Shown here: one piece after another, positions 6,115 to 10,434 of the stretch
Layout: every line of letters begins with the position of its first letter
Numbering within the stretch: the stretch's first letter is position 1
Assembly: GCF_014083985.1 (NCBI RefSeq)
Contig: NZ_CP046907.1
Span: forward strand, 4,750,501 to 4,814,500
DNA: 64,000 bases
Source of the DNA: Streptomyces sp. SCUT-3
GTDB taxonomy: Bacteria; Actinomycetota; Actinomycetes; Streptomycetales; Streptomycetaceae
Direction: 5' to 3'
Program-made: the position numbers and the translations under genes
The notes under the pieces: model-generated
The model's database searches: none
Told to the model about the DNA's origin: nothing
What the model saw: only the letters and a program-made list of their open reading frames with translations

Positions 6115-9100
6115 TCACAGCTCCTTCGGGGCGTCGGCCTTGCGCAGCGAGAAGCGCAGGTCCAGCGCCTCGTCGTGGAACGGCTCGCCCCGGCCGCCGG
6201 AGGCGTCGGCGGTGCCGCGGGCGAAGTCCACGGCCAGGACCTCGTCGGCGACCAGGCCGGCGTGCTCGGCCAGGGCCTCTGCGGTCTCGGCGCTGCCGGA
6301 CTCCCAGCGCAGCGCGATGCGGTCCGCGACGTCCAGGCCGCTGTTCTTGCGGGCCTCCTGGATCAGCCGGATCGCGTCGCGGGCCAGGCCGGCGCGGCGC
6401 AGCTCGGGGGTGATCTCCAGGTCGAGGGCGACGGTCGCGCCGGAGTCGGAGGCCACCGCCCAGCCCTCGCGCGGGGTCTCGGTGACGATCACCTCGTCGG
6501 GGGAGAGGGTGACGGACTCGCCGTCCACCTCCACCACCGCCGAGCCGGTCTCCCGCAGCGAGGCGGACAGCGCGGCCGCGTCCGCCGCGGCGACCGCCTT
6601 GGCGACCGGCTGCGTGCCCTTGCCGAAACGGCGCCCCAGGGCGCGGAAGTTGGCCTTGGCCGAGGTGTCCACCAGGGAGCCGCCCACCTCGCTGAGGGAC
6701 GCCAGCGAGGCCACGTTGAGCTCCTCGGCGATCTGGGCGCGCAACTGCTCGCCCAGGTCCTCGAAGCCCGCCGCGGCGATCAGCGCGCGCCGCAGCGGCT
6801 GGCGGGTCTTGACGCCGGAGTCGGCGCGGGTAGCCCGGCCCAGTTCCACCAGGCGCCGTACCAGCGCCATCTGCTCCGACAGCGCCGGGTCGACCAGCGA
6901 GGCGTCCACGGCCGGCCAGGAGGCCAGGTGCACCGACTCGGGGGCGTCCGGCGTCACCGGGCGGACCATGTCCTGCCACACCCGCTCGGTGATGAACGGG
7001 GTGATCGGGGCCATCAGGCGGGTCACCGTGTCGACGACCTCGTGCAGGGTGGCCAGCGCGGCCGGCTCGCCCTGCCAGAAGCGGCGGCGGGAGCGGCGCA
7101 CGTACCAGTTGGACAGGTCGTCGACGAACGCCGAGAGCAGCTTGCCGGCCCGCTGGGTGTCGAAGTCCTCCAGCGCGTCGGTGACCTGCTCGGTGAGCGT
7201 GTTCAGCTCGCCCAGCAGCCAGCGGTCCAGCAGCGGGCGGTCCTGCGGCGCCGGGTCGGCGTCCGACGGCGCCCAGCCGCTGGTGCGCGCGTACAGGGCC
7301 TGGAAGGCGACGGTGTTCCAGTAGGTCAGCAGCGTCTTGCGGACGACCTCCTGGATGGTGCCGTGGCCCACCCGGCGGGCCGCCCACGGGGAGCCGCCGG
7401 CCGCCATGAACCAGCGGACCGCGTCCGCGCCGTGCTGGTCCATCAGCGGGATCGGCTGGAGGATGTTGCCCAGGTGCTTGGACATCTTGCGGCCGTCCTC
7501 GGCGAGGATGTGGCCCAGGCAGACCACGTTCTCGTAGGAGGACCGGTCGAAGACCAGGGTGCCGACCGCCATCAGCGTGTAGAACCAGCCGCGGGTCTGG
7601 TCGATCGCCTCGCAGACGAACTGCGCCGGGTAGTGGCTCTCGAAGAGCTCCTTGTTGCGGTAGGGGTAGCCCCACTGCGCGAACGGCATGGACCCGGAGT
7701 CGTACCAGGCGTCGATCACCTCGGGCACCCGGACCGCGGTCAGGGAGCAGCCCTCGGCGGTGCAGCCGAAGGTGACCTCGTCGATGTAGGGGCGGTGCGG
7801 GTCCAGGGAGGACAGGTCCCTGCCCGCCAGGGAGCCCAGCTCGGTCAGGGAGCCGACGCAGGTCAGGTGGCCCTCCTCGCAGCGCCAGACCGGCAGCGGG
7901 GTGCCCCAGTAGCGGTTGCGGGACAGGGCCCAGTCGATGTTGTTGTTCAGCCAGTCGCCGAACCGGCCGTGCTTGACCGCGTCCGGGTACCAGTTGGTCC
8001 GCTCGTTCTCCCGCAGCATCGCGTCCTTGACCTGCGTGGTGCGGATGTACCAGGACGGCTGCGCGTAGTACAGCAGCGCGGTGTGGCAGCGCCAGCAGTG
8101 CGGGTAGCTGTGCTCGTACGGCAGGTGCCGGAAGAGCAGGCCGCGCGCGTCCAGGTCGGCCACCAGCGCCTCGTCGGCCTTCTTGAAGAACTGCCCGCCG
8201 ACCAGGGGGACGTCCTCCTCGAAGGTCCCGTCGGGGCGCACCGGGTTGACCACCGGCAGGCCGTAGGCGCGGCAGGCCTTCAGGTCGTCCTCGCCGAAGG
8301 CGGGGGACTGGTGGACCAGGCCGGTGCCGTCCTCGGTGGTGACGTACTCGGCGTTGAGGACGAAGTGCGCGTCCTCGATCTCCACCAGGTCGAAGGGGCG
8401 GCGGTAGGCCCAGCGCTCCATCTCGGCGCCGGTGAAGGACTGCCCGGTGGCCGTCCAGCCCTCGCCCAGGGCCTTGCCCAGCAGCGGCTCGGCCACCACC
8501 AGCCTCTCGGTGCCGTCGGTGGCCACGACGTAGGTCACCCCGGGGTGGGCGGCGACCGCGGTGTTGGACACCAGGGTCCACGGGGTGGTCGTCCACACCA
8601 GCAGCGACGCCTCGCCGGCCAGCGGGCCGGAGGTCAGCGGGAAGCGCACGTACACCGAGGGGTCGACGACCGTCTCGTAGCCCTGCGCCAGCTCGTGGTC
8701 GGACAGGCCGGTGCCGCAGCGCGGGCACCAGGGGGCGACCCGGTGGTCCTGGACCAGCAGCCCCTTGTCGAAGATCTGCTTGAGCGACCACCACACGGAC
8801 TCGACGTACTCGGGGTCCATGGTGCGGTAGGCGTCGTCCATGTCGACCCAGTAGCCCATGCGCTCGGTCAGCTCGGCGAAGGCGCCCACGTGCCGCTGCA
8901 CCGACTCGCGGCACTTCGCGTTGAACTCGGCGATGCCGTAGGCCTCGATGTCCTTCTTGCCGTTGAAGCCGAGCTCCTTCTCCACGGCCAGCTCCACCGG
9001 CAGGCCGTGGCAGTCCCAGCCGGCCTTGCGGGTCACGTGGTGGCCCCGCATGGTCTTGAAGCGGGGGAAGACGTCCTTGAAGACGCGGGCCTCGATGTGG

Positions 9101-9279
9101 TGCGCGCCCGGCATGCCGTTCGCGGTGGGCGGGCCCTCGTAGAAGACCCACTCGGGCCGTCCCTCGGACTGCTCCAGGGAGCGGGCGAAGACCTTGTGCT
9201 CGCGCCAGAAGCCGAGCACGGAGTGCTCGAGGGCGGGCAGGTCGACCTGGGCGGGTACCGGCTGGTACTGCGGCGTCAT
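6115..9279 (-). CDS. ileS: isoleucyl-tRNA synthetase
   Basis: Class I aminoacyl-tRNA synthetase charging tRNA-Ile. The 1054-aa length fits the long, eukaryote-like IleS of actinobacteria. Residues near 48-62 (YEGPPTANGMPGAHH) hold the HIGH-type signature, WDCHGLPVE follows, the editing domain shows LVWTTTPWTL, and the second catalytic motif is DGRKMSKHLGN (KMSKS class). The anticodon-binding helical domain includes DDLSNWYVRRSRRRFW. ATG start is supported by CCGGAGG a few bases upstream. A T-box leader precedes it, so expression should rise when tRNA-Ile is uncharged. Confidence 0.98.
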   Translation of the reverse strand: MTPQYQPVPAQVDLPALEHSVLGFWREHKVFARSLEQSEGRPEWVFYEGPPTANGMPGAHHIEARVFKDVFPRFKTMRGHHVTRKAGWDCHGLPVELAVEKELGFNGKKDIEAYGIAEFNAKCRESVQRHVGAFAELTERMGYWVDMDDAYRTMDPEYVESVWWSLKQIFDKGLLVQDHRVAPWCPRCGTGLSDHELAQGYETVVDPSVYVRFPLTSGPLAGEASLLVWTTTPWTLVSNTAVAAHPGVTYVVATDGTERLVVAEPLLGKALGEGWTATGQSFTGAEMERWAYRRPFDLVEIEDAHFVLNAEYVTTEDGTGLVHQSPAFGEDDLKACRAYGLPVVNPVRPDGTFEEDVPLVGGQFFKKADEALVADLDARGLLFRHLPYEHSYPHCWRCHTALLYYAQPSWYIRTTQVKDAMLRENERTNWYPDAVKHGRFGDWLNNNIDWALSRNRYWGTPLPVWRCEEGHLTCVGSLTELGSLAGRDLSSLDPHRPYIDEVTFGCTAEGCSLTAVRVPEVIDAWYDSGSMPFAQWGYPYRNKELFESHYPAQFVCEAIDQTRGWFYTLMAVGTLVFDRSSYENVVCLGHILAEDGRKMSKHLGNILQPIPLMDQHGADAVRWFMAAGGSPWAARRVGHGTIQEVVRKTLLTYWNTVAFQALYARTSGWAPSDADPAPQDRPLLDRWLLGELNTLTEQVTDALEDFDTQRAGKLLSAFVDDLSNWYVRRSRRRFWQGEPAALATLHEVVDTVTRLMAPITPFITERVWQDMVRPVTPDAPESVHLASWPAVDASLVDPALSEQMALVRRLVELGRATRADSGVKTRQPLRRALIAAAGFEDLGEQLRAQIAEELNVASLASLSEVGGSLVDTSAKANFRALGRRFGKGTQPVAKAVAAADAAALSASLRETGSAVVEVDGESVTLSPDEVIVTETPREGWAVASDSGATVALDLEITPELRRAGLARDAIRLIQEARKNSGLDVADRIALRWESGSAETAEALAEHAGLVADEVLAVDFARGTADASGGRGEPFHDEALDLRFSLRKADAPKEL

Positions 9280-9284
9280 CGGCG

Positions 9285-9540
9285 GGGCCTCCGGCGGAAA
9301 GGGTCACTGCGCTGTCCGTCGGAGGGACGAGAGGCACCGCACCGTCGGCGGCGGCTCCCGCGGTACCACCCTCCTTGACCGCGGACGCGGACCCGCTGCG
9401 CGGGCGCCCGTCCCCGGCCCTCTCATTGGGGCCGCGTGCCGGTTCTACTCGCCCGCCCGCCCGCGCCGTGCGTCCGCCGGCGCGGTCCGGGGGCTTTCTT
9501 CCGGCGGCTCCGGGGTGATCTTCACGCCGTGCACACCCCC
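9285..9540 (-). promoter_or_regulatory. T-box riboswitch in the ileS leader
   Basis: Reading the minus strand toward ileS, the T-box core GGGTGGTACCGCGG lies at 9359-9372, followed by CTCGTCCCTCCGACGG, both hallmark T-box elements that pair with the tRNA NCCA end. Upstream, at 9512-9539, GGGGU can pair with ACCCC around a short loop holding an AUC triplet (9517-9519), an isoleucine codon. This resembles the ultrashort Stem I of actinobacterial ileS T-boxes. An AGTAGAA element near 9440 fits a loop-E motif. GGAGG at 9288-9292 can pair with CCCTCC near 9320, suggesting translational control by sequestration. Exact helix borders are inferred. Confidence 0.88.
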
Positions 9541-9616
9541 GGGCTCACACCGTCCCCGGGTCGCTCGCGGCTGCGTGCGGCGCTACTCGTCCCCATCCAT
9601 GCCTGTCGCTGCGCCC

Positions 9617-9622
9617 AGTGTA
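9617..9622 (-). promoter_or_regulatory. possible -10 element of the ileS leader
   Basis: TACACT on the minus strand lies about 80 nt before the T-box 5' helix. No clear -35 hexamer is visible. The 9541-9939 interval otherwise holds no gene that I can support. Confidence 0.3.
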
Positions 9623-9939
9623 CGGGGCCGCCCGACCGGCTGCTCCGGAATACCCCGCCCGGCACTGGGCACAACGCATACCGGACGCGCTGCCGATCGG
9701 GCAGGGCCGACGGGGCGGGCGGCGTGCCCCGTTGCCGCGGGTCCGGAGTCGATTTATCGTTCCGGCACGATTCGCGAGCAGGATCACGGAATGCGAAGGG
9801 GGTGCGGTCGTGGCGGACGCGGCGACGCGGAGTGCGGCCGCACCCGCCGAGGGCGGTGCGCAGGAAGAGGCGGGCGCGCCCTCGCCCCGGCCGCGAAGAG
9901 GACCGCGGTCCCCAGTGGATGAAGACGGGAGCCAAGACG

Positions 9940-10434
9940 GTGGTGGCTAAGAAGACCGCGGCGAAGACCGTGGAGAAGAGCCCGGTGGCAGCCGGGGCGG
10001 GCACGGTGCCCGCGGTCGGCGGCACGGCCGTCACGAGCCCGGGCGACCTGGCCGTCAGGCCCGGCGAGGACCCCTGGACGGCCGAGGAGGTCGAGGAGAT
10101 CAGGACCGGGCTGGCCGAGGAGGCCGAACGGCTGCGCCAGGAACTGGTGGCCTCCGAGGAGACCCTCTCCGGCCTGATGCGCGACTCCGGCGGCGGCGCC
10201 GGCGACGACGAGGCGGACACCGGGACCAAGAACATCTCCCGCGAGCACGAGCTGTCGCTGGCCGCCAACGCCCGCGAGATGCTCCGCCAGACCGAGCACG
10301 CCCTGGAGCGGCTGCAGGGCGGCACCTTCGCCCTGTGCGAGTCCTGCGCGAAGCCCATCGGCAAGGCCAGGCTCCAGGCGTTCCCCCGGGCGACCCTGTG
10401 CGTGGAGTGCAAGCAGCGCCAGGAGCGCCGCTAG
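9940..10434 (+). CDS. TraR/DksA-type zinc-finger regulator
   Basis: DksA/TraR C4 zinc-finger family protein, a possible RNA-polymerase secondary-channel factor. The N-terminus is Lys/Ala-rich (MVAKKTAAKTVEKS). The central helices (about 45-125) run PWTAEEVEEIRTGLAEEAERLRQEL, and the C-terminus has the zinc motif CESCAKPIGKARLQAFPRATLCVECK (CxxC-17-CxxC). GTG at 9940 is preferred because GGGAG lies 8 nt before it and the protein then begins MVAKK; ATG 9919 in the same frame is an alternative with a poorer ribosome-binding site. It stands alone between divergent ileS and lspA. Confidence 0.85.
   Translation: MVAKKTAAKTVEKSPVAAGAGTVPAVGGTAVTSPGDLAVRPGEDPWTAEEVEEIRTGLAEEAERLRQELVASEETLSGLMRDSGGGAGDDEADTGTKNISREHELSLAANAREMLRQTEHALERLQGGTFALCESCAKPIGKARLQAFPRATLCVECKQRQERR

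Follow-up and report, generated by a model that had tools for sequence, protein, structure and literature searches.

The leader of ileS in Streptomyces sp. SCUT-3 is very probably a tRNA-Ile-responsive T-box riboswitch that has a canonical long Stem I and acts on translation. It lies in a window of 64,000 nt (GCF_014083985.1, NZ_CP046907.1 positions 4,750,501-4,814,500), to which all coordinates below refer; unless stated otherwise, features are on the minus strand. The ileS gene (6115-9279) encodes an isoleucine--tRNA ligase of 1054 aa, which scores 889.1 bits with TIGR00392 (cut-off 621.4) and has close relatives in Streptomyces. The leader directly precedes it, spanning roughly position 9610 to the ileS start at 9279. 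Transcription appears to start near 9610, judging from the position of a probable -10 box, TACACT, at 9617-9622. The same hexamer or a close TAnnnT form occurs 21-26 nt upstream of GACGAGUA in nearly all streptomycete leaders, and no sigma-70-type site came out of a generic promoter scan. The interval originally proposed for the element, 9285-9540, does hold the T-box core, the specifier and the Shine-Dalgarno sequence (SD), but the element reaches about 9604-9610 and most of its Stem I falls outside that interval. Divergent from the leader, on the plus strand, a gene at 9784-10434 resembles a DksA/TraR-type zinc-finger protein (CESCAKPIGKARLQAFPRATLCVECK).

The T-box core can be read directly as AGGGUGGUACCGCG at 9372-9359 and CUCGUCCCUCC at 9331-9321, just where the original prediction had put it. 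The covariance search recommended there as a check gave a match to RF00230 in two collinear pieces on the ileS strand. In this sensitive leader scan, the first piece (9602-9507, 42.4 bits, E 6.5e-8, model positions 7-103) comprises the complete Stem I, and the second (9393-9323, 21.9 bits, E 0.013) comprises Stem III and the T-box core. Two defining properties of a T-box are present: a UGGN bulge within a two-part antiterminator/antisequestrator (AGGGUGGUACCGCG...CUCGUCCCU, RF00230 positions 163-216) and a Stem I specifier, AUC, that fits the amino acid of the downstream gene. In a genome-wide search at E 0.001, the ileS leader was the only RF00230 match. Neither piece in the window attains the RF00230 gathering score of 93, which is a detection threshold and not a structural feature. 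This threshold seems too strict for such leaders, since the related ileS leader L087 covers the model over its full length and still scores only 52.4 bits; high G+C content together with expanded Stems II and III is a likely reason.

The specifier AUC at 9517-9519 sits where it was originally placed and is kept in both long and ultrashort leaders. Across these leaders the preceding base varies between G, A and C, which argues against GAU (Asp) as the specifier, a reading that was rejected. The same genome encodes a tRNA-Ile(GAU) whose discriminator base is A73 and whose CCA is not encoded. This tRNA fits both the AUC specifier and the UGGU bulge, read directly at 9365-9368, which is the expected partner of the tRNA 3' end ACCA. 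With an isoleucine specifier and an ileS gene identified downstream by TIGR00392, the assignment to the ileS T-boxes of the actinobacterial kind holds.

Between Stem I and the T-box core, three further elements can be placed. Stem II (9438-9505) was assigned by its S-turn motif, GCCGGAAGAA ... AGUAGAACCGGC, shared with the related leaders that were read. The Stem IIA/B region at 9416-9434 (CGGCCCCAAUGAGAGGGCC), a putative pseudoknot, was assigned by motif as well, a similar CCCCAAUGAG-GGGGC motif being present in streptomycete leaders. Stem III has the approximate limits 9377-9415; the second RF00230 match begins inside it, and a hairpin is predicted there in the leader fold. The antisequestrator (9321-9374), contained in the second RF00230 match, pairs GGAGGG (9374-9369) with CCCUCC (9326-9321) and GCGGG (9361-9357) with CUCGU (9331-9327). 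In the minimum-free-energy fold, a sequestrator hairpin (9288-9325) appears, formed by CCUCCG-A-CGGA at 9325-9315 (CCUCCGACGGA) and UCCG-C-CGGAGG at 9298-9288 (UCCGCCGGAGG). Its 3' arm includes the SD, GGAGG at 9288-9292, which is located 8 nt upstream of the ileS start codon by direct reading; CCCUCC is indeed complementary to GGAGG (9292-9288), as had been pointed out. The two hairpins are mutually exclusive because 9325-9321 is common to both. The computed energies are -45.6 kcal/mol for the sequestrator conformer and -40.3 kcal/mol for the antisequestrator conformer, and the gap of 5.3 kcal/mol makes a default-off switch plausible.

Comparison with related leaders gives the same picture. 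Folding the leaders that have a T-box core places the first CGUCC stretch in a base-paired position in every case (73/73), and in most of them the predicted partner is a run of GGAGG-like purines upstream of the start codon. In a few leaders (L005, L006) the script picked the wrong CGUCC, and the right one there also pairs with GGAGG; in a few others, such as L049, L062 and L067, the partner is not clearly the SD. For five sequestrator pairs that lie outside the SD, 69.9% of cells hold a standard pair, compared with a maximum of 62.8% in 1000 shuffles, and the figures are 63.9% against 60.8% when only distinct rows are counted; the arms were anchored independently on CGUCC and an SD-like motif, and the SD was missed in several rows. 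For the sequestrator core, the argument is one of conservation and energy and not of covariation, because hardly any variation occurs in the CCUCC arm or in the SD. The region 9200-9800 yielded no terminator-like site. Given this result and the SD-covering hairpin predicted for most leaders, the output is best read as translational control. The preference for translational over transcriptional control voiced in the original prediction is thus supported by the SD-sequestering folds, by the result for 9200-9800 and by covariation beyond the SD.

Rho could gain access to the message through an untranslated leader, and the same sensor might then act mainly on transcription, for example through Rho-dependent termination following translational repression. 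Against this alternative stand a switch partner that is the SD itself and a region (9200-9800) in which no intrinsic terminator was found. We consider it very unlikely, even though most annotated T-boxes regulate transcription, according to a review of the field (PMC7583486). Rho could, nevertheless, act in addition to SD sequestration.

How such a translational switch might work can be outlined by taking tRNA binding, aminoacylation sensing, elbow contact and switching from characterised T-boxes and fitting them to what we observe here, namely the sequence parts, the covarying Stem I, the mutually exclusive hairpins and the matching tRNA. The leader would bind tRNA-Ile through the AUC specifier and the anticodon GAU; Stem II would probably brace the duplex of codon and anticodon, and the tRNA elbow would be contacted by the distal T-loop module, which would stack on it. 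With uncharged tRNA, the free 3' end ACCA would pair with UGGU and stabilise the antisequestrator GGAGGG/CCCUCC. CCCUCC would then be unable to cover the SD, and ileS would be translated. With charged tRNA, or with no tRNA at all, CCUCCG would pair with CGGAGG and the ribosome would be blocked.

The canonical long Stem I spans 9506-9604. It scores 112 bits with R1, a covariance model built from our own alignment of 40 leaders, that of the window among them. The helix under the specifier loop is formed by GGGG (9591-9594) and CCCC (9515-9512), with a pair probability of 0.90 and 99.3% of cells paired across 40 leaders; the Rfam alignment likewise pairs the CCCC after the specifier with GGGG 9594-9591. 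Above it, AGUA of the specifier-loop S-turn (loop E) at 9584-9587 lies opposite GAA at 9523-9521, and in most leaders AGUA is found 64-67 nt upstream of GAA. GAGCGA at 9561-9566 carries the AG bulge of the distal T-loop module and is aligned to AGAGA of RF00230. The distal loop GACGGUGUGAG (9544-9554) is closed by CCCGGG 9560-9555 and CCCGGG 9543-9538, a helix paired in 99.6% of cells, with three of its six pairs compensated in the 40 leaders. These features were compared in alignment A3, which consists of 39 non-redundant long leaders, drawn from 80 fetched ileS loci, together with the window. A3 shows no variation in AG.GA of the AG bulge or in GGUG of the distal loop; AGUA and AUCAC do not vary either, by construction, because the loci were selected for these two motifs. 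RNAalifold run on the first, raggedly trimmed alignment (A2) had given 14 pairs only, and A2 was replaced by A3 with an explicit structure. In A3, the long Stem I is paired in 94.8% of cells and shows compensatory changes in 15 of 22 pairs, a result reached by none of 500 shuffles; sliding the structure by one column lowers the paired cells to 49-56%. Relatedness is not taken into account by the shuffles, but the one-column slide and the count of compensated pairs point the same way. An AGUA/GAA specifier loop, an AG bulge, a distal T-loop and covarying helices are all found together, as in canonical long Stem I T-boxes.

The original prediction had instead placed AUC in an ultrashort Stem I, with GGGGU (9539-9535) and ACCCC (9516-9512) as its two arms. 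Direct reading confirms that these letters are present, complementary and enclose AUC; the hairpin as drawn has -5.3 kcal/mol alone (the best local fold has -10.6), and genuine ultrashort Stem I leaders do occur in other actinobacteria, for example GGGGCGAUCACCCC in L054 and L067. However, the short hairpin has no compensatory changes and does no better than shuffles, 28 of 40 leaders lack its U-A pair, and its pair probability in the folded Stem I is 0.00, compared with 0.90 for the long-stem pairs. Forcing it costs 7.6 kcal/mol when Stem I is folded alone (-38.0 against -45.6 kcal/mol unconstrained). Moreover, the GGGG of genuine ultrashort leaders lies only 2-3 nt from AUC, and their flanking UGAUGGGG is the counterpart of the window's GGAUGGGG at 9598-9591, not of 9539-9535. 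What defines an ultrashort Stem I, a specifier in a short hairpin without a distal arm, is absent from the window. Because the long stem covaries, an ultrashort Stem I here is extremely improbable. Comparison with other streptomycete ileS leaders had been proposed as a check, and it upheld the AUC codon but not the short helix, which lacks compensatory change; a better Stem I upstream, named in advance as grounds for rejection, was found, and it covaries strongly. The long Stem I therefore corrects a structural misreading, and the case illustrates that a long Stem I T-box of high G+C content can both escape the Rfam cut-off and mislead the eye.

The long Stem I is widespread among relatives of the window. 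R1 matched in 57 of 60 genomes of its order, in all 44 other genomes of its family that were searched, and, across the class, in 83 of 197 genomes, representing 37 of 91 genera. No R1 match was obtained in G015, G017 and G021, members of one genus (g6) of the same order, while the two other sampled genera of their family do match. A pattern search for the T-box core was tried as a denominator for the class survey and discarded, as a reversed control matched about as often in many genomes. Reading the leaders of 80 ileS loci, fetched by similarity to a streptomycete IleS, distinguished three forms among the 72 loci with a T-box core: 57 with a long AGUA/GAA Stem I, five with a long Stem I lacking AGUA and ten ultrashort. 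These proportions lean towards the window's relatives because of the way the loci were fetched, and eight of the ultrashort calls were made by script, L076 and L077 being assigned by reading CAGG-CC-AUCA-CCUG. Ultrashort forms were found in propionibacterial relatives, Bifidobacterium and freshwater lineages. The five leaders without AGUA (L061, L062, L065, L068 and L070), all upstream of ileS, have an AG bulge and a distal loop on a long Stem I, as exemplified in Actinomadura by GGGGACACCUGCC...GGCGGUCUGAUCACCCC. They may stand midway between the long form and the ultrashort one. At L045, L050, L052, L053, L056, L066, L079 and L080, no T-box core was seen within about 270 bases of the ileS start; the loci without a core include one from Actinoplanes and three from Aeromicrobium.

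Together, the 72 ileS leaders, of which 57 are long, 5 intermediate and 10 ultrashort, provide a basis for tracing the reduction of Stem I. It is conceivable, if somewhat short of an even bet, that a full-length elbow-binding Stem I is a usual form and no rarity among translational ileS T-boxes of this actinobacterial class, with the window being typical and the short forms being later reductions. If true, this would cast doubt on the idea that the elbow-binding module is seldom retained in translational T-boxes.

The leader belongs to a kind already described. In 2005, Seliverstov et al. described translational ileS T-boxes from several Actinobacteria, working with a genome set that included Streptomyces (PMC1262725), and Sherwood et al. 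2015 also dealt with such T-boxes, as cited by the 2020 review (PMC7583486). That review attributes a canonical long Stem I to a few translational T-boxes and an intermediate or ultrashort one to most (PMC7583486). Since the 2005 report and the 2020 review cover such T-boxes, the leader in the window is an ordinary member of the group. With other actinobacterial translational ileS T-boxes it shares the downstream ileS, an isoleucine specifier, a hairpin that sequesters the SD in place of a terminator, and the Stem II domain. It differs from the solved ileS T-boxes of N. farcinica and M. tuberculosis, whose shortened Stem I is devoid of the elbow-binding module, in having a full Stem I with an AG bulge and a distal loop. 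The AGUA/GAA loop, AG bulge, distal T-loop and UGGN bulge are common to the long Stem I leaders of RF00230, such as the transcriptional ones of Firmicutes; unlike these, the window leader is predicted to act by SD sequestration and not through a terminator, and it scores under the gathering cut-off. The codon, the AUCA-CC 3' side, Stem II and the T-box core are shared with ultrashort Stem I T-boxes, which have a short hairpin only (e.g. GGGG-CG-AUCA-CCCC), whereas in the window a long distal stem caps the specifier loop.

Several other T-boxes were met in the same order. Four of them (L082:430-674, L084:506-725 and, on the minus strand, L083:2693-2458 and L086:2729-2489) are full long-Stem-I T-boxes, with RF00230 E-values from 2e-9 to 1e-13. 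Their apparent specifier is GAC, and they lie upstream of genes of the aspartate--tRNA(Asn) ligase type; the family was tested for L082 and L083, and L084 and L086 start alike. Their hosts belong to another family of the order, along with one genome of the window's own family, and these T-boxes fall outside the usual actinobacterial ileS context. One more T-box, at L085:427-663 (RF00230 E 8e-12), has the apparent specifier UCC and precedes serS at L085:713-1990, which encodes a seryl-tRNA synthetase (TIGR00414).
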